Source of the DNA: a virus
DNA: 21,506 nucleotides
Direction: 5' to 3' (one strand)
Virus record (IMG/VR): IMGVR_UViG_3300042894_001776
Coordinates: 1-21,506 of that record
Notes under the pieces: model-generated
What the model saw: only the letters and a program-made list of their open reading frames with translations
Database searches by the model: none
Told to the model about the DNA's origin: nothing
Part shown: positions 8,221 to 17,447 of the stretch, one piece after another
How the letters are laid out: the number at the start of each line of letters is the position of its first letter
Numbering within the stretch: position 1 is the stretch's first letter
Translations under genes and position numbers: made by a program

Positions 8221-9978
8221 ATGTACACTAAATTAATCACACAAATAAACAATAGGTTAGTAGGTAGTACAGGTAAGATTTCAACAGCTAAAATACGCTC
8301 AAAAAGTAACAGTGATTTAATCCAATCTATTCTTGCATCTACTAGCTTTTTAGATAATGAATCTTCTATTACAGAACGTATCTACTGTATTCGTAATGAT
8401 ATTACTGCACCTCCTGTTTGTATCATTACGAATACACCTCTAAGATATAACAATAATACACACTGCTATAATACAGCTAATCAACACACACCTCGCAATA
8501 AAGCTGTAGCTAGTGTACTTAAGTTTAAAAATACTATTACAAATAGACACAGTGATATAGTATCTAACCTTATTACTATATATACTAGTAACTCTTATAA
8601 TCTTAAAAGTGTTAATGAAACAAAGGAATTTATAAGGTATTTTAAGCAGACATATAAAAACATTAAACCTGCAATAATATCCAAACATACAGATAATATT
8701 TGTAGTGTTATTTTTTATACAGATAAAGGTTTTTTAAAAGGTAACTACGAGTTAAAGTTATTTGGAGAAAGGTGCTATTTAATAATGAAAGATTTATTTG
8801 AAGCGCCATGCTGTATTGATGATTCTAATACTAAAGCACATTATGAAAACTATAATGTTGGTTATCGTAAAATAACAACAAATAAAAATAGAATTAATTT
8901 ATATAACAATATAATTAAAGAAAAAATACAATCTCAAGGATTTGTTATTAATAACAGTAATGAAATATATAACCTTAAAGATTGTGAGTTTAATGTTACT
9001 TGCATAACTTGTAATGTTACTCAAACTAAGTGTCTAACTAATGGTAGATGGAAAGATATATACTGCTCAGGTTGTTATGGAAAGGTAGGTCGGTCAAAGC
9101 AAGAGGATGAAATAGTGGATTATATTAAATCTGTTAAAGATATAGAAATAATAACTAACTACAAACTTACAACAACTGGTAAGGAACTAGATATATACAT
9201 ACCTGATCTTAAAGTTGGTATTGAGTATAACGGTATTGTTTGGCATAGCTATGGTAAAACGCACCCAAACAATATTAAAAATATAAGTAATAAATTTCAT
9301 ATTAATGAAAAGCGTTTAATGTGTAATAAGTTGGGTATAAGGGTGATTAATATATTTGATAGTGAATGGTTATTCAAAAAAGACATAGTAAAATCAATGA
9401 TAAGTAGTAAATTACACTTACCCTTAAATACAATATTCGCAAGAAAGTGTACAATTCAGCAGATAGATAAGCAGACTAAAGGACTATTTCTTAAAAATAA
9501 TCACATTCAAGGAAATGATAATTCTAGTGTGTGTTTAGGTTTATTTTATAATAATGAGATAGTTTCAGTAATGACGTTTGGAACTAGAAAAATAACAGGT
9601 AAAGTATCGTTTGAGCTTATTAGGTTCTGTAATAAAATTAACACACACATCCCCGGTAGCGCGAGTAAATTATTCAAACACTTTTTAAAAAATATATGGC
9701 AGGGTGAAACTATAGTAACATACGCAGATCTAAGATTTAGTGAAGGTGTCTTATACAATAATTTAGGATTTACATTTAAACACGACAGCTCACCTAATTA
9801 CTTTTATACTAAAGATTGTCTAACTTTAGAAAATAGGGTAAATTATCAAAAACATAAACTTGCAACTAAATTAGAAAGCTTTAATGAGTTAAATACAGAA
9901 CTGTGCAATATGTTAGATAATGGATATCGTATTATATACGATTGTGGTAATAAGGTGTATGAGTACAGACTTATCTAA
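8221..9978 (+). CDS. Putative homing endonuclease, VSR-like nuclease
   Basis: 585 aa free-standing endonuclease. A zinc-ribbon is visible as C261-x2-C264 and C282-x2-C285. It is followed by a VSR/EDxHD-type nuclease core: E295/E297 in SKQEDE, D324 in ELDIYIPD, E335 in GIEYNG and H342 in WHS. An N-terminal module (about 1-110) has PPVCIITNTPLRYNN, seen in related phage nucleases. The C-terminal third (about 410-560: NNHIQGND, LGLFYNNEIVSVMTFG, YADLRFSEG, LYNNLGF) resembles the GNAT-like domain often fused to this nuclease type. It lies between sheath and tube genes in the same orientation, after the sheath terminator. It has no TATAAATA-N5 start; an ATTAAATA at 8203-8210 is ten bases from the ATG. 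Strongly AT-rich, which fits later arrival. Recognition target cannot be told. Confidence 0.75.
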   Translation: MYTKLITQINNRLVGSTGKISTAKIRSKSNSDLIQSILASTSFLDNESSITERIYCIRNDITAPPVCIITNTPLRYNNNTHCYNTANQHTPRNKAVASVLKFKNTITNRHSDIVSNLITIYTSNSYNLKSVNETKEFIRYFKQTYKNIKPAIISKHTDNICSVIFYTDKGFLKGNYELKLFGERCYLIMKDLFEAPCCIDDSNTKAHYENYNVGYRKITTNKNRINLYNNIIKEKIQSQGFVINNSNEIYNLKDCEFNVTCITCNVTQTKCLTNGRWKDIYCSGCYGKVGRSKQEDEIVDYIKSVKDIEIITNYKLTTTGKELDIYIPDLKVGIEYNGIVWHSYGKTHPNNIKNISNKFHINEKRLMCNKLGIRVINIFDSEWLFKKDIVKSMISSKLHLPLNTIFARKCTIQQIDKQTKGLFLKNNHIQGNDNSSVCLGLFYNNEIVSVMTFGTRKITGKVSFELIRFCNKINTHIPGSASKLFKHFLKNIWQGETIVTYADLRFSEGVLYNNLGFTFKHDSSPNYFYTKDCLTLENRVNYQKHKLATKLESFNELNTELCNMLDNGYRIIYDCGNKVYEYRLI

Positions 9979-11288: not shown

Positions 11289-12071
11289 ATGCACATAGTA
11301 ACATTACCATACTCTAATAAAACATTCAGTATACCTACATTTACATTTAAAGATGTATTTAATTTAGCTAGACTTGAATATAATAATAATAATGTTGGTT
11401 ATATTTCTTATATATGTAATACTTTAAATATAACTAAGCTAAATATTGTTGATAAACTTTTTGTAGTACTTAAAGTACGTGAATTTTTTATAGATGATAA
11501 TATTGCACTAAGTCTTGATGGTAAGGTTAAAAACTTGCTAATAAGCTCGGTAATAGATAAGTTTAAAGATATACCAAATATAGAACAATATATTGAATAT
11601 ACAGATAGTCTTTCTACTGTAATTGGGGTTGATATACCAACAGCTATTGTAACACCAGAAGCAATAAGTGATATCTACCTACAGGTTATTAAGTATATTG
11701 AGTTTAATTCTAAAAGATATAATATATCGACTGATGAAGATATAATAGGAATAAGTAATTTCTTAGGCGCTTCGTTAATGACTGATATTATTAATTTTAT
11801 AAAGGTATCAGATTGCGTTCTCTATATTTACGAGGATAAAAATACAAGTATTAATGTCAATTTCTTATCCTCAGATCCTTGGCTGTTTATTAAAGCTATA
11901 CTATCTGATTATGACTATATAGGATGTAGAGAAATTTTATTTAGATTGTCAAAGAGATTAAGTAGTGAGACTATACTTGATTCTACTCCAAAAGATATTA
12001 AATTCTTTATAGAAGAATACCAAGCTGAGAATAAATCAGGTAGCAGTGGCAATTCTATGCTTAACATTTAA
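11289..12071 (+). CDS. Unknown tail/baseplate assembly protein
   Basis: 260 aa, beginning three bases after the previous stop, so probably coupled; no late promoter or Shine-Dalgarno is visible. The protein starts with a beta hairpin (HIVTLPYSNKTFSIPTFTFK) followed by helices rich in Asn, Ile and Asp, with no catalytic motif. It and the next gene precede the tape-measure-like gene, the usual place for tail assembly chaperones, and both resemble in layout T4 gp26/gp51-type baseplate assembly proteins. That role is inferred from position and overall pattern only. Confidence 0.5.
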   Translation: MHIVTLPYSNKTFSIPTFTFKDVFNLARLEYNNNNVGYISYICNTLNITKLNIVDKLFVVLKVREFFIDDNIALSLDGKVKNLLISSVIDKFKDIPNIEQYIEYTDSLSTVIGVDIPTAIVTPEAISDIYLQVIKYIEFNSKRYNISTDEDIIGISNFLGASLMTDIINFIKVSDCVLYIYEDKNTSINVNFLSSDPWLFIKAILSDYDYIGCREILFRLSKRLSSETILDSTPKDIKFFIEEYQAENKSGSSGNSMLNI

Positions 12072-12074
12072 ATA
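12067..12074 (+). promoter_or_regulatory. Late promoter-like TTTAAATA
   Basis: TTTAAATA, five bases (CAATT) before ATG 12080, overlapping the stop of the preceding gene. Weaker match, same spacing as the perfect copies. Confidence 0.5.
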
Positions 12075-12079
12075 CAATT

Positions 12080-12820
12080 ATGTCAGAAACATCAATTAAG
12101 GACTTTTTAGCAAAAATATCTTCTGGAGTAAAGGATACTGTGGATGTTACTTTACAGTCTTCAGGTAAGACTGTAAAGTGTAATATCTTATCTTTAAAAC
12201 AACAAAAAGACATTATTTCGTGTGTAGCTGATGGTCTAGTCGGTATTGTATCATTTACTCGTATAATTAATAACATTATTGAAGAAGTTTCAAGTTGTAA
12301 TGATATTCTTATAACAGATAAGCCTTATGTAATTATACCTCTTAGATTTAATGCTCTAGGTACATCATATAAAAATGAAGATGGTATATCTCTAGATATA
12401 AGTTCTATTTTAGAAACTCTTAAAACAAAGAAGCTTTCTGCTAAGACATCGGACTCTATTACATTTAATAACATAACAGTTAATGTTAGAGTTCCTACAA
12501 TTAAAGAGGAAAGTGATATCACTAAGAAACTAGAGGACGAGATAAAACGTAACGGTGAAAAGAATAATACTAAAAATTTAGGTAGCATTTATATTTATGA
12601 GATACTTAAATATATTAAGTCTTTAGAATTTGATGATAGTGTATTAAACTTCGAAAAATTACCTATTAAAGATAAGCTTGAAGTAATAGAATCTTTACCG
12701 CTAGCACATAACAAGTTAATTATTCAGTTTATTGAGGCTATTAGAGCGGAAGAGAGAGACTTACTTACAGTTAAAGATACAGTAATTGAGATAAACCCTG
12801 GATTCTTTAATACCGACTAA
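12080..12820 (+). CDS. Putative baseplate hub/tail assembly protein (gp26-like)
   Basis: 246 aa. After a short helix the protein has VDVTLQSSGKTVKCNILSLK, then QQKDIISCVADG, an Asn/Ile helix, and ITDKPYVIIPLRFNALG. This order (extended N-terminus, QQKxL/I helix, DK...L.LR.xxLG) is what I recall for the T4 base plate protein family that includes gp26 and the baseplate proteins of marine relatives. It ends with VIEINPGFF. The gene directly precedes the tape-measure-like gene, which fits a chaperone or hub-assembly role. The start is fixed by late promoter spacing. Moderate confidence in the family, low in the exact function. Confidence 0.55.
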   Translation: MSETSIKDFLAKISSGVKDTVDVTLQSSGKTVKCNILSLKQQKDIISCVADGLVGIVSFTRIINNIIEEVSSCNDILITDKPYVIIPLRFNALGTSYKNEDGISLDISSILETLKTKKLSAKTSDSITFNNITVNVRVPTIKEESDITKKLEDEIKRNGEKNNTKNLGSIYIYEILKYIKSLEFDDSVLNFEKLPIKDKLEVIESLPLAHNKLIIQFIEAIRAEERDLLTVKDTVIEINPGFFNTD

Positions 12821-12828: not shown

Positions 12829-14946
12829 GTGAGTGAATTAGATAGTGAATCTGCATCAATGATGACAAAGTTTTTAAACTCTGTCTCTGCTTTTACTGGA
12901 CCTAAAGGTGTCCCATCACAAGATGATAGTACCTCACGTAAAGTTATACCTAATAAGAGTTCTCGTAGACCGCCTATAAATCCTATTCTGTCTGGCAATG
13001 AAGAAAGGTATTTTTTTAACGTAGGTACTTCTATAGCGGAAGCTTTTGTTAATTTGTTTAAAAAAACAAAGGGTGATACGAGTAAACCACAAACAATAAT
13101 TAGTGAAAAGCAAAAGCAAGTAGAAGAGTCTAAGACATCTAATTTGCCAAAATTACCCTCACCTTCTGAATTTAGTATTCTCTCTATCCTCGCTGCAGGT
13201 ATTGTAGCTCTCGCGGTTTATATATCAAAGATATTTGGACCAACAGGTGAATTTATTTTAAAAGTTATAACTAAAATACAAGGTGCTATATTTTTATTAA
13301 GTAAGCTTAAAATAGGTGAAAAAATAACAGGATTTTTTACAAGGATAGTTAAGTTTATAAGTGAAATGGATATAGGTAAGAAACTATCTACTATGTTTGA
13401 TAGTGTTAAGGGTATATTTAATAAGATGCCTCTCTTAGGTAAAATTGGTGGTAAGCTAGGATTAGTCTTCAAAAGTGTTGGCAAATTTATTGCTAGTAAA
13501 CTAGGCTTTATTGTTAGAAGAATACCTTTAATTGGTGCGCTAATTAATTTTACATACGCTTATCAGCGATGGCAAAAAGGTGAATATATAAAGAGTGTAC
13601 TTGAAATATTATCAGGTATAGCCAATATAAGTGTAATGTTTGGATTTCTACCAGGAGCTGCTATATCACTAGCGATAGATGGTCTATTACTAGTATCTGA
13701 TTTATTGGAAGAAAAAGATGTTGGTGCTAAAGCTAGTGCTGCTGTAAAAGGTACTAAATTAGGTGCCAAATTACTTATAGGTTATTTAAAGAAGACTGCG
13801 AGTGAAATAGGTCCTAAATTACTTAAAGTAATAAAATGGCTACCGTTCGTAGGTGGAGTTGCTGGCTTGGCTCTTGCATATTTACGTTTTAAAGAAGGTG
13901 ACTGGATTGCAGGTATTTTTGAATTAGTAGGAGCTGTAGCTGATTTTATACCAGGTGCTGGTACTGTTGTATCTTGGATTATAGATGGTGGTCTATTACT
14001 TTACGATATACTTAAAACACCTAAGGTAGAAGGTCAAGAAGGTAAACCTACGACTACTACGACTAACTTCATGTCAACAATGAAAGATCTAGCTAAAACA
14101 GTTGGTAATAAGCTAGTATCTGCTATGTGGTATATACCAGGTATTTCGTCTATACTATATTTCGGTCAAGGCATTAAAAAAATTAAGAGTGGTGATATAT
14201 TAAACGGTCTAAAAGACATAGGATCTGCAATGTTAGCATTTGCAGGTGGAAAGGCTTTGGTTGAATCTATATCGTGGCTTGTAGGTTTATTTAGCGCACC
14301 AAAAACCGAGACAGGAGAAGTTACCGCTAAGAAAATAACATTTGGAGATATAATCCAATCTTCTATTCTATCACTAATTGATATGATAGCCAATGCTGTT
14401 ACTAGCATAGTAGATTGGGGTAAGACAATAATTAGTGAAACTTTAGATAAAGTTAATGAGTATAATCCCGTCGCTATTGGATTTCAAGCAGCACATGATA
14501 AAAAAATGGCAGAGTTCGCTGAGCGGGATATAAAAACTGAAGCTGAGTTAAAAGTAGCGAGAGCAAGAGCTGCTGAGCGCGCTAAAGAGCGTGAAAGAGA
14601 TAAAGCCTCAGGTAAAGAATTGTCTCCACTTGAGCAAAGAATTGAAGATCGTAGAGAGCGTAATAAAACAACAGCTGCAGCAATCACTACTGCTAATACG
14701 AGTATAGATCCTAAATTAGATGAACAAACAAATCTTATAAATCTACAAAATCAAATTTTACTACAACTCCTAGGCACATCGAAAGAGCAACTAAATGTAA
14801 CTAAAAAGCAAAAACCTACTGTTATAGCTGATACAAATAATACACAATCAAATGTATCAGCTAATTTAAATAACGCATTTAGTACATCTAAGCAGGATAG
14901 TAGAGGTATGTATACTTCTTCGCCATATAGCTTATCTCCTGCTTAA
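12829..14946 (+). CDS. Tape-measure-like protein with three hydrophobic repeat modules
   Basis: 705 aa from GTG. Residues 1-110 are polar; 118-140 form a hydrophobic segment (SILSILAAGIVALAVYISKI). Three related modules of about 100 residues follow, opening at residues 232 (IPLIGALINFTYAYQRWQKG), 338 (LPFVGGVAGLALAYLRFKEG) and 436 (IPGISSILYFGQGIKKIKSG). Each continues with (E/D)-x-I-x-x-(V/I/L)-x-(E/D)-(I/L) and a second hydrophobic stretch. The C-terminal ~200 residues are charged and Ala/Lys/Arg-rich (coiled-coil-like, about 555-610), then polar. Length, hydrophobic segments and position after two assembly genes fit a tail length-determining protein (T4 gp29 is 590 aa), but it could also be a membrane-active ejection protein packed in the tail. 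No lytic domain is visible. Confidence 0.65.
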   Translation: MSELDSESASMMTKFLNSVSAFTGPKGVPSQDDSTSRKVIPNKSSRRPPINPILSGNEERYFFNVGTSIAEAFVNLFKKTKGDTSKPQTIISEKQKQVEESKTSNLPKLPSPSEFSILSILAAGIVALAVYISKIFGPTGEFILKVITKIQGAIFLLSKLKIGEKITGFFTRIVKFISEMDIGKKLSTMFDSVKGIFNKMPLLGKIGGKLGLVFKSVGKFIASKLGFIVRRIPLIGALINFTYAYQRWQKGEYIKSVLEILSGIANISVMFGFLPGAAISLAIDGLLLVSDLLEEKDVGAKASAAVKGTKLGAKLLIGYLKKTASEIGPKLLKVIKWLPFVGGVAGLALAYLRFKEGDWIAGIFELVGAVADFIPGAGTVVSWIIDGGLLLYDILKTPKVEGQEGKPTTTTTNFMSTMKDLAKTVGNKLVSAMWYIPGISSILYFGQGIKKIKSGDILNGLKDIGSAMLAFAGGKALVESISWLVGLFSAPKTETGEVTAKKITFGDIIQSSILSLIDMIANAVTSIVDWGKTIISETLDKVNEYNPVAIGFQAAHDKKMAEFAERDIKTEAELKVARARAAERAKERERDKASGKELSPLEQRIEDRRERNKTTAAAITTANTSIDPKLDEQTNLINLQNQILLQLLGTSKEQLNVTKKQKPTVIADTNNTQSNVSANLNNAFSTSKQDSRGMYTSSPYSLSPA

Positions 14947-14954: not shown

Positions 14955-15758
14955 ATGAGTATAATTAATGTTGTAGAAGACGCTAAATATAAGTGGACGA
15001 CAACAACAGGTGACTATCTTAAAGAAGCACCGCGTATAATTGCAACTACATATAAAGTATCTAATAACGCTATATTACAAACAGTTAAATCTTATTATGA
15101 ATTAGCACAAACAGGACTTTTTGGAGCGGATGTAAGCGGTACAGGTTATTATAATAAATTACACACAGCAGAAGTCATGGATAAATATGTGCTTCCGTTT
15201 TTTGGAGATGAGGTTCGTGGCTTTAATAACACATGGGGTGACTCATATGTAGGTTCAACGAATGGATCACAAGCAGCAGGTAGTTCTTTTTTAGGTGATG
15301 TTCAAAAGCTTGCTGATACAGTAATGACAACAGCATCTCAATTTAACGCGTTAAAGGATAACAAACCAGGTGCTTTATTTGAACCACCTAAGTACTATAA
15401 CTATAGTGCTGATGATAGTTCATTAACTGTTGATTTTATATTAATAAATACAGAAGAGGATGCATACAACGAACACTACAAACTTGTTAAAAAGCTTATA
15501 ACAGAGAATAGATTTACCCGTGAAGACGGTAACGCGTTTATCGTAACACCGCCATATCTGTGGAGTGTTATAGTTCCAGGTTACAGAGCGATTAGATGGG
15601 CGTCGTGTAGTGTTAGTATAAATTTAATAGGCTCACGTAAATATAACTCTAGACTTAAAGCACTTATACCAGAAGGTTATAGAGTGTCATTAACCTTTAA
15701 CTCACTATACACAGAACCAAGTAATTTTAGCGAAAGTTACAATAGCCAAACACTATGA
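14955..15758 (+). CDS. Putative baseplate tail-tube cap/junction protein (gp48-like)
   Basis: 267 aa. The C-terminal half carries the recognisable part: VDFILINTEEDAYNEHYKLV, then PPYLWSVIVPGYRAIRWASC and IPEGYRVSLTFNSL. This matches the closing pattern of T4 gp48/gp54-type proteins (P-x-x-W-x-V, then I(P/A)xx(Y/F)x(V/L)xLTxxSL), which join the tube to the baseplate. The N-terminal half is Ser/Gly/Thr-rich without a clear fold. It overlaps the gp53-like gene by four bases (ATGA), indicating coupled translation within a baseplate cluster. Confidence 0.5.
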   Translation: MSIINVVEDAKYKWTTTTGDYLKEAPRIIATTYKVSNNAILQTVKSYYELAQTGLFGADVSGTGYYNKLHTAEVMDKYVLPFFGDEVRGFNNTWGDSYVGSTNGSQAAGSSFLGDVQKLADTVMTTASQFNALKDNKPGALFEPPKYYNYSADDSSLTVDFILINTEEDAYNEHYKLVKKLITENRFTREDGNAFIVTPPYLWSVIVPGYRAIRWASCSVSINLIGSRKYNSRLKALIPEGYRVSLTFNSLYTEPSNFSESYNSQTL

Positions 15759-16156
15759 GCACTTTAGGATCATATCAAAACGATATAGTAAACTTACCTA
15801 AACTCGATTTAGAGTTATATGAGCGTATATTTAAAGTATACAACACTACAGGTAATGATAAGACGTTTCAATTTTATAATATACTTAAGAAGATTGAAAT
15901 GCCCACTAATATTGATTCTAATATAGTGGATTTTTACACCGTTCAATCTTCTATACCTACGACTACTATATCGTATAGAATTTATCAGGATATTAGATTA
16001 TGGTGGTTAATATATCTCCTTAATAAAGATGTGATAGGATCTAACATATTTGTTATACCGCCTGGTACACAGCTTAAGTATATTAAACCACAGTTTCTCG
16101 AAATCGTATTCAATCAAATAACTAACTTAATTGTATTCAATGGTAGGCATTTCTGA
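15755..16156 (+). CDS. gp53: Baseplate wedge protein, gp53-like
   Basis: 133 aa, start overlapping the previous stop (ATGA). The core TISYRIYQDIRLWWLIYLLN, followed by NIFVIPPGTQLKYI, is the small wedge-protein pattern of gp53 relatives: a SxxxY...D.xWW.I...N helix pair and then a LysM-like IP-x-G-x-x-L turn. T4 gp53 (196 aa) closes the ring of wedges around the hub; this version is shorter. Its end overlaps the next gene by 17 bases if that gene starts at 16140. Confidence 0.65.
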   Translation: MSTLGSYQNDIVNLPKLDLELYERIFKVYNTTGNDKTFQFYNILKKIEMPTNIDSNIVDFYTVQSSIPTTTISYRIYQDIRLWWLIYLLNKDVIGSNIFVIPPGTQLKYIKPQFLEIVFNQITNLIVFNGRHF

Positions 16157-17447
16157 AATTAACGGTACAAAATACGAATATGAGTATTTATTGTCTAACT
16201 CTACAGGTGAAATTAGTTTCACCGACGGAGTCATTTTAGCTTTTGATATAACTGATAATTTATTCAATCCCTTTTTAAGTGGTTATATAACAATTTCAAA
16301 CCCCTACAATGTAATAGAGTCAACATTCTTATTACGTGGTGATGGTACTGATAAATTAAAAATACGCTTTAACCCTAAAGATAATAAAGATAAAAAGATA
16401 GAACAAGAGTATATTGTAATTTCTGAATCTAATTTTATTGATGATGGAACACCTCTTAAAAATACTAAAACATATTTGCTAAACACAGTCGAAGAAGGTC
16501 TGCTAACAGCAGAGTTTCCATATAATGAAAAATATAATGGTTACGCTGGTGATATAATTAAGAGTATCTTTACTAAATTTAAATTTCCTACAGATAATTT
16601 TGATCCAGGTAATTTCATTATAAATGAATATCCTGAATATATAATACCACCTAACTCATTTAGATACATCGATGTGCTATATTACTTTCTCAAGTATTAC
16701 TACTATCAAGACGGTGATCTAGCTGTTAAAGGCTTTCTCAAAAAAGATTCAGACGGTAAGTTTAGATTAAAAATATTAACTAAAGATATTTTTAATAAAA
16801 ACGAAGAATTAGTATATGAAGGCTTTAATTCAGGTGAGTTAGTATCTTCATCTGTCTCTAACCCTAATAACCCTCCACCTGTAGCTGAGACAAAGCCATA
16901 TATTAATAATATTATGAGTAATAGTCTTACAACACCCTCTACAGAATTTTCCAATACATTCTTTATGAATACAATCGTATCTGGATATGATCCTATTTTA
17001 GGTGAATCAGAGATGATAGAATTGAGATTAAAAGATGTTCGAAAGAAATGGAAAACGAAATTTGTGGATGTATTTAAGAGTGTAGGTGGAAAAGTTAAAC
17101 AACACTTAAATTTAACTGATTTAAAAATAAAAGGTGAATTTAAACTTACAAGATTACCATTTAAAACAAAAGACAGCGCTAAGATTATAGAGGCTAATAT
17201 GGTAAATGACTTTACTTTCTACAATCTACAGTTAAACATAAACGTTATTGGCGATCCAGGTAGAACATCAGGTACATTTATTGATGTCTTCAAGTTAAAG
17301 AACGATAAATCAAAAAGTGATGAAAAATTACTAGGTAGATGGTTAGTAACTTCAGTCAGACACGTAAAGTTACTAAATACATACAGAAATGAAATTTATT
17401 GCGTAAAAACATACGTAGGTCCTAACTTCGACGAAAAAGATGTCTAG
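16140..17447 (+). CDS. Baseplate hub protein, gp27-like
   Basis: 435 aa from ATG 16140 (MVGISEINGTKYEYE); an in-frame TTG at 16131 would add three residues but ATG is preferred. N-terminal domain: ISFTDGVILAFDITDNLFN followed by SGYITISNPYNVIE, a pattern common in contractile-tail hub proteins. The C-terminus (LQLNINVIGDPGRTSGTFID, then GRWLVTSVRHVKLLNTYRNE) matches the last domain of gp27/gpD-type hubs: v.G....R.G, then (G)(R/x)WLV..V.H and a Y-x-x-x-(I/L) strand. A Pro/Asn-rich linker lies near residues 238-250. It shares an 8-bp overlap with the next gene. No lysozyme domain is attached. Confidence 0.6.
   Translation: MVGISEINGTKYEYEYLLSNSTGEISFTDGVILAFDITDNLFNPFLSGYITISNPYNVIESTFLLRGDGTDKLKIRFNPKDNKDKKIEQEYIVISESNFIDDGTPLKNTKTYLLNTVEEGLLTAEFPYNEKYNGYAGDIIKSIFTKFKFPTDNFDPGNFIINEYPEYIIPPNSFRYIDVLYYFLKYYYYQDGDLAVKGFLKKDSDGKFRLKILTKDIFNKNEELVYEGFNSGELVSSSVSNPNNPPPVAETKPYINNIMSNSLTTPSTEFSNTFFMNTIVSGYDPILGESEMIELRLKDVRKKWKTKFVDVFKSVGGKVKQHLNLTDLKIKGEFKLTRLPFKTKDSAKIIEANMVNDFTFYNLQLNINVIGDPGRTSGTFIDVFKLKNDKSKSDEKLLGRWLVTSVRHVKLLNTYRNEIYCVKTYVGPNFDEKDV

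Follow-up and report, generated by a model that had tools for sequence, protein, structure and literature searches.

Does a hydrophobic module repeated within a phage tail protein serve to measure the tail, or to insert into a host membrane? The question is raised by an ORF at positions 12829-14946 (+ strand) of a virus record of 21,506 bases, the whole of which was analysed and is referred to here as the window. The original prediction described its product as a tape-measure-like protein with three repeated hydrophobic modules, which could scale tail length or form membrane-inserting segments. Tape measures with hydrophobic regions, muralytic domains and short tandem units are known, while the tape measure's help in the passage of phage DNA across the inner membrane is a matter still unsettled. 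We lean towards reading the ORF as the tail tape measure gene of an uncultured, contractile-tailed virus related to T4, the hydrophobic core of the encoded protein being a duplicated helical and probably membrane-inserting module.

Gene neighbourhood and domain layout

The window carries a T4-like packaging and tail gene set, including genes for the large terminase, tail sheath, tail tube, gp26/gp51-like hub proteins, a gp53-like wedge protein and a phrog_350 tail protein. The ORF starts with GTG, encodes 705 aa and lies between a gp26-like gene and a gene for a 267-aa protein, a location that we call the slot. Directly before it stand two adjacent gp26/gp51-like paralogues (11289-12820): one at 11289-12071 (+; HHalign to T4 gp26, 94.9%) and the baseplate hub protein gene at 12080-12820 (+; PF12322, E = 3.9e-8; HHalign to T4 gp26, 96.4%). 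It is followed by the 267-aa gene (p267, 14955-15758, +), assigned by conserved gene order as the gene after the slot ORF in relatives, a gp53-like baseplate wedge gene (15755-16156, +; phrog_7145, E = 1e-5, with PF11246 below its cut-off) and a tail/hub gene (16131-17447, +), identified by gene order and a phrog_350 profile match, whose HMM matches cyanophage T4-GC_15 proteins. The slot thus comes after the tube and chaperone genes and before the baseplate genes, as expected for a tail tape measure protein. Gene order, together with the PHROG matches of orthologs described below, makes the slot ORF a probable tail tape measure gene.

Several other features of the window were seen. A homing-endonuclease-like ORF (8221-9978; phrog_3339, E = 8.7e-89) lies between the sheath and tube genes, and in some relatives different ORFs are inserted at this site or, in one (L043), separate the slot ORF from the gp26-like gene. 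A Head closure Hc2-like protein (1007-1882, - strand; phrog_679, E = 2.3e-8) is encoded on the opposite strand near the terminase. The first 1000 bases have a GC content of 0.56, compared with 0.27-0.39 in the rest of the window, and may mark foreign DNA or a join made during assembly; the open ORF at 1-771 within them had no match in phage records or PHROGs. Because LNIYV-like residues are common upstream of the start codon among orthologs, we also counted CTAAATA, which we take to be a late-promoter motif. The window has 9 occurrences where 10.25 are expected, and with no enrichment this reading was rejected.

A whole-protein search with the slot ORF product found a single relative, a 100%-identical IMG/VR contig. 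No Pfam domain was matched, muralytic domains included, and the PHROGs matched (phrog_35997, 23178, 790, 18972, 34252 and 38472) are only unnamed, endolysin-named or peptidase-named families, over stretches that overlap the modules. The protein opens with an N-terminal region (12829-13173, +; VIP...P.L...ER.R...A..F) common to orthologs with and without modules, followed by a single hydrophobic segment at residues 115-133 (13171-13227, +; Kyte-Doolittle 19-mer mean of 2.3). Modules M1 (residues 219-296; 13483-13716, +), M2 (residues 326-398; 13804-14022, +) and M3 (residues 423-494; 14095-14310, +) come next, M3 being a diverged copy of what we call the C-type, the type amplified in relatives L027 and L030. 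A C-terminal region (14701-14943, +; QTxLIxxQNQ...KEQL...SRxMYxSSPYxLS) is again common to orthologs.

The repeat is real and old

The repeat unit is one module of ~74 residues, present in three copies. The predicted openings at residues 232, 338 and 436 were confirmed as I232-P233, L338-P339 and I436-P437, and these positions bear out the spacings of 106 and 98 residues. The motif IDG-x-LL(V/L)xD(I/L)L, said to be common to the first two copies, is found at 283-293 and 385-395 and is absent from the third. In pairwise Smith-Waterman alignments M1-M2 scored 110, against 27.6 ± 4.9 for shuffled sequences, of which 0 of 1000 scored as high. M2-M3 scored 65 (0 of 1000 shuffles as high) and M1-M3 scored 45 (8 of 1000). 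We then scored the copies with a leave-window-out profile HMM, built from 52 of 55 modules with the window and its 100%-identical contig (L002/L017) excluded. M1 received 60.0 bits, M2 88.2 and M3 63.9, with E-values, calculated for one sequence, between 1e-20 and 1e-29, while two further stretches of the same protein received just -1.8 and 0.1 bits and the best shuffle of the hydrophobic core 7.8 bits (980 of 1000 shuffles gave any alignment). The three repeated hydrophobic modules of the original prediction are therefore significantly similar to one another, and the shuffles and the leave-window-out profile reject chance or composition as the source of the repeat.

A profile made from 15 distant single-copy modules also finds the window protein, giving 48.5 bits for M1, 62.8 for M2 and 13.8 for M3 (best shuffle, 11.6), so that the window protein carries the module of single-module hub and muralytic proteins. 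The low score of M3 with this profile marks it as a diverged subtype. At the DNA level the three copies are just 53-64% identical, which indicates that the duplication is old rather than recent in this virus.

Each module consists of three helices, the first containing a Pro and a Gly; a G-D/E turn separates the first two, and a turn rich in Gly, often PGxG, precedes the third. A model of the full-length protein contains helices only, although its mean pLDDT is 43.5, with three predicted helices in M1 and M2 and two in M3, where the second and third are fused. The helices break at the same turns in each copy, and at this pLDDT the model offers a weak test against unrelated folds for the three segments. 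An AlphaFold model of a single module, based on 101 sequences, combines a long helix with a helical hairpin (pLDDT 69.5, with core blocks at 82-89). No structure in BFVD or the PDB matched its fold at E = 0.001. The top BFVD rows include module-carrying cyanophage M23 proteins and Campylobacter phage proteins.

Orthologs share their ends and differ in the middle

Relatives were gathered via the sheath gene, yielding 80 loci (the best 80 of 93), and identical sequences were removed before alignments and counts. As far as the contigs reach, the shared order is terL, tube-like, sheath, tube, tube-like, gp26-like, gp26-like, slot ORF, p267, gp53-like, hub438 and p316. The exceptions are ORF insertions, a small number of distant loci, and nine loci with a different gene of 303-337 aa after gp26 (e.g. 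L031, L044 and L055-L057), which fell below our 450-residue limit and were left out. N- and C-terminal motifs are common to the slot ORFs of the clade, including module-free ones such as L021, L035, L063, L070, L083 and L085; the C-terminal motif is absent from the slot ORFs of L080, L081 and L106. Between these shared ends the middles are interchangeable.

Among 24 distinct complete orthologs, an iterated profile counted no module in eight, one in three, two in seven, three in five and four in one. Six copies occur in L025, L026, L027 and L092, whose ORFs are cut by the contig end, so the number of modules in the clade ranges from 0 to at least 6; scans with multi-copy queries found no protein with more than six among the ORFs counted. 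When the leave-window-out HMM was run over 7013 ORFs, 42 slot ORFs matched at E < 1e-3, several of them from the same contigs. At E up to 1 nine other ORFs matched, namely that of L043, where slot and gp26 are kept apart by an additional ORF, and eight isolated-phage proteins missed by the slot rule (L003-L005, L009, L010 and L013-L015).

Copy number in the clade changes partly by tandem duplication. The last three copies of L092 and L027 lie 91 residues apart, with DNA identities of 81-88%, and for the last two copies the identity is 91% in L030, 90% in L053 and 77% in L040. A tree of the modules, built on 46 rows and 88 columns, has good support on 20 of its 42 inner branches. In it the window's M1 groups with the first module of L030 (98/95), M2 with the second modules of L030, L032 and L034 (99/96), and M3 with the C-type copies of L030 and L027 (99/97), while extra copies cluster by virus (L030, 99/94; L027, 100/99). 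The tree and the DNA identities together point to an old triplet and then repeated amplification, mostly of the last module.

Many contigs end within the slot gene, several of them at module or rod repeats (L025, L026, L027, L028, L029, L092 and L229/L238), and one contig of 207 kb has both of its ends in this gene. Assembly is probably interrupted by the repeat arrays.

A single module in other phages

Outside the clade, tblastn against phage records found the module in T4-like cyanophages and in phages X1, ACP17 and V45v66. These proteins carry the same module as the window protein, and at 12 of the 13 loci (L003-L015) the retrieved sequence includes a gp26-like gene. They differ from the window protein in having one module each, at 13 of 13 loci, rather than three, and in that seven of the 13 carry a muralytic or endolysin-like domain (four through a Pfam match or resemblance to a domain so matched, three only through resemblance to a domain in cyanophage proteins annotated as lysozyme or endolysin), whereas no Pfam domain is found in the window protein. 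A scan of IMG/VR with canonical single-copy modules, which biases it towards single copies, confirmed at least 479 loci, of which the best 80 were kept. Among 84,980 species genomes of bacteria and archaea, seven loci were confirmed, all on metagenome-assembled contigs, a disparity suggesting that the module is mainly viral. In the census of these loci (best 80 from IMG/VR plus those of the genome scan), which shares the bias towards canonical modules, 86 of 87 module ORFs have a single copy and one has two. A gp26-like gene lies upstream of 61 of the 87, and none is visible on the other 26 fragments. The 74 complete module ORFs span 330 to 993 aa.

Where muralytic or endolysin-like domains could be located, in seven of 113 distinct module ORFs, they are C-terminal of the module in all seven. 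They include VanY (L007), phage tail lysozyme (L008) and M23 (L015 and L009) domains, and in X1, V45v66 and ACP17 a domain resembling one in cyanophage proteins annotated as lysozyme or endolysin. Five of 62 census ORFs have a muralytic Pfam domain, of the SLT, lysozyme or M23 kind; the domain order given here covers the set of seven above. The sole ADP-ribosyltransferase domain, in S-PM2, sits N-terminal of the module. The S-PM2 protein concerned, S-PM2p209 (L008, 2970-6473), has an ADP-ribosyltransferase-like domain, the module and a phage tail lysozyme domain in a single chain, and is possibly an effector delivered with a tail protein.

Evidence for a tape measure in the slot

Is the slot ORF a tape measure? 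No tape-measure profile in PHROGs or Pfam matches the window protein, and, unlike some orthologs, it has no rod repeat, so this part of the original prediction is carried by context: gene order, the shared ends, and the properties of orthologs and of more distant cyanophages. Of ten slot orthologs scanned, four (L061, L063, L070 and L105) match PHROGs annotated 'tail length tape measure' (best E = 9.7e-7) and six have no such match. These matches are weak and may be partly compositional, yet they recur in several families. The module-free ortholog L083 matches a tail-associated-lysin PHROG (E = 0.00099). Rod-like repeats occur in L092 (period 22 and 11), L025 (11/22), L030 (22) and L047 (33), and units of 11 residues have been described in tape measures (PMC3271669). 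The L092 protein, a tape measure candidate, has a tandem 11-residue repeat (GAKEKVSGVYE) at residues ~846-1062, after its six modules.

Three cluster C cyanophages allow a comparison with tail length. The slot ORFs encode 1565 and 1456 aa in S-CREM2, 933 and 722 aa in S-N03, and 936 and 735 aa in S-H34, and the tails are reported as 418 nm, 138 nm and 129 nm, respectively (PMC10665884); S-CRM01, with a tail of 140-170 nm in the same table, stood outside the comparison. Slot lengths thus grow 1.7- and 2.0-fold for a threefold tail, in three phages whose slot proteins carry no module. By comparison, the hub gene encodes 235 aa in all three, the tail protein 426, 419 and 419 aa, and the gene that follows encodes, if anything, a shorter product in S-CREM2 (812 aa vs. 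893 and 901). As these slot proteins lack the module, the trend supports the slot, and not the module, as the ruler. Both S-CREM2 slot proteins were detected in the virion, with 73 and 71 unique peptides, by the study that names them endolysins (PMC10665884). These proteins, gp208 and gp209 (L217, 4484-13555), look like the tape measures of S-CREM2; gp209 has 13-residue repeats, with autocorrelation at 13 and 39. Counting against the tape-measure reading, several cyanophages have two large slot proteins, either of which is a ruler candidate. A tape measure role of the protein in the window's virus is an inference.

Do the modules measure the tail?

The original prediction suggested that the modules could scale tail length. 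In the 24 complete orthologs, copy number and ORF length rise together (Spearman 0.76, nominal p = 2e-5), in a set of related sequences uncorrected for kinship. Lengths were taken stop to stop, a few residues above protein length, and the set excludes ORFs running off contig ends, hence the six-copy proteins, and the isolated-phage loci L003-L015. When 90 residues per copy are subtracted, the remaining length falls with copy number (-0.48, nominal p = 0.02, the same 24 ORFs). More copies thus go with a longer protein in this clade; in the canonical-biased sample from outside it the module is nearly always single.

It is unlikely, in our view, that the modules are ruler units, each copy adding ~90-105 residues to the tape measure and a fixed step to the tail. 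The joint increase of copy number and length would fit such a ruler, as would the six-copy proteins, which reach at least 1062 aa although cut by contig ends, and the duplication of the last module in several relatives (77-91% DNA identity between copies). Against these stand the canonical-biased census, single-copy in all ORFs but one, the S-CREM2 slot proteins, which lack the module despite a 418-nm tail, the kinship of the 24 ORFs, which are not independent, and the separate rods of 11, 22 and 33 residues in some orthologs, which are better ruler material. Eight of the 24 orthologs manage without any module. The module is probably not the basic unit of a ruler, since it stays single across a threefold range of ORF length and the phage with the longest tail has none in its slot proteins. 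Extra modules could still make the protein longer, and with it the tail if the protein is a tape measure; we read this lengthening as a consequence of the modules and not as their basic function. A more far-reaching version, which we regard as rather improbable, has one repeat array governing tail length as well as how large or deep a membrane-crossing channel is, the repeat being an unnamed membrane-penetration module of marine T4-like viruses whose copy number is adjustable by tandem duplication in one uncultured clade.

Two other roles must be weighed. The modules might bind the tail assembly chaperone or each other, keeping a long hydrophobic protein soluble and packed while the tube assembles. 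The two gp26/gp51-like paralogues just upstream, T4 gp51 being annotated as a chaperone, are consistent with this, as is the need of a longer protein for more copies that the correlation with length would reflect, and a role of this kind, the recruitment of chaperone, is reported to be the one favoured for the hydrophobic regions of the TP901-1 tape measure (PMC5099701). The conserved charged and turn residues of the module (R, G-D, E, S and D), however, suit a defined domain better than a generic sticky stretch, and its order relative to muralytic and ADP-ribosyltransferase domains looks domain-like, and we hold chaperone binding to be a doubtful explanation. Least credible to us is that the protein is distinct from the tape measure, a hub protein that is ejected on its own account and has lost the enzyme of its cyanophage-type muralytic ancestors. 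Some relatives of the module are indeed annotated as transglycosylase or peptidase or fall in endolysin PHROGs, the lysin match of L083 points the same way, and several T4-like cyanophages have two large slot ORFs. Yet the window's clade has one long slot ORF with conserved ends, four of ten scanned orthologs match tape-measure PHROGs, and there is no second long helical candidate in the 21.5 kb of the window, itself an incomplete genome.

A probable membrane segment

We favour membrane insertion of the modules within a tape measure, on the basis of hydrophobicity and domain order. Hydrophobicity is moderate, with module means of 0.41-0.85; hydrophobic 19-mers reach 1.6 or more within M1 and M2 and none does in M3, and the stronger segment lies N-terminal of the array. 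An N-terminal ADP-ribosyltransferase and C-terminal muralytic domains would fit an orientation with the N-side towards the cytoplasm, the module in the inner membrane and the C-side towards the cell wall. In the mechanism we envisage, the conserved ends would anchor the protein to the tail, and the middle would be an exchangeable cassette, here with three tandem copies of the module. The modules would ride inside the tail tube until the protein is ejected ahead of the DNA, and would then insert into the host inner membrane and help to build the path of DNA entry. Several copies may give a larger or more robust membrane segment.

Several observations weigh against this, among them the moderate hydrophobicity and the low confidence of the structure models. 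The module is missing from eight of 24 complete distinct orthologs and so is not indispensable. In TP901-1, the first hydrophobic region of the tape measure is reported to be essential, while removal of the second barely affects infection (PMC5099701); such a nearly dispensable hydrophobic region argues against a membrane role.

Relation to known proteins

As in the Staphylococcus phage and TP901-1 tape measures, which are built of 11-residue units, 11-residue rods occur in the orthologs L025 and L092, and the TP901-1 protein likewise has essential ends, variable repeats and hydrophobic regions. The repeat of the window protein differs in being a hydrophobic module of ~100 residues instead of a short coiled-coil unit. 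The gene for T4 gp29 (phrog_1283) lies near the gp26 and gp51 genes in the corresponding hub cluster, and gp29 has by eye a hydrophobic central stretch. In its gene (L110, 5879-7651) this stretch is followed by a GDWGG motif that resembles the module by eye. Identity with gp29 was not supported: HHalign gave no match above 20%, with gp29 as a single sequence, and the module HMM had no match in gp29. HTVC008M was scanned over 60-109 kb only for this comparison.

Bacterial membrane proteins of the DUF4112 family (PF13430) have a short IPGxG(D/T) motif in common with the module, and weak DUF4112 Pfam matches were seen in 5 of 16 and 2 of 7 members. As a bacterial relative DUF4112 was rejected, since its HHalign value of 5.6% was exceeded by the best of 60 column-shuffled controls, at 10.9%, in a test with 18 loci from 17 genomes of one phylum, of which 14 of 18 proteins were used (L205, L208, L210 and L215 were missed by the motif filter). 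Matches to Pfam 'Apolipoprotein' (2 of 16 members) and the NCBIfam matches of L092 fall, where placed, in the 11-residue repeat of L092 and were not read as homology. No named family for the module was found in Pfam or NCBIfam. A literature search of partial coverage, judged mostly by titles and the openings of abstracts, turned up no paper that we recognised as being about it, and the terms gp29 and tape measure are absent from the main text of a study of T4-like cyanophages (PMC3037559).

With its clear signature, at least 479 IMG/VR loci and natural copy numbers from 0 to 6, the compact module is a defined piece for study. Natural near-pairs, such as L047 with two copies and L053 with three, suit the question of whether repeat number alters tail length. 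The module may also help to annotate ORFs of T4-like cyanophages that are now called endolysin, peptidase or hypothetical.
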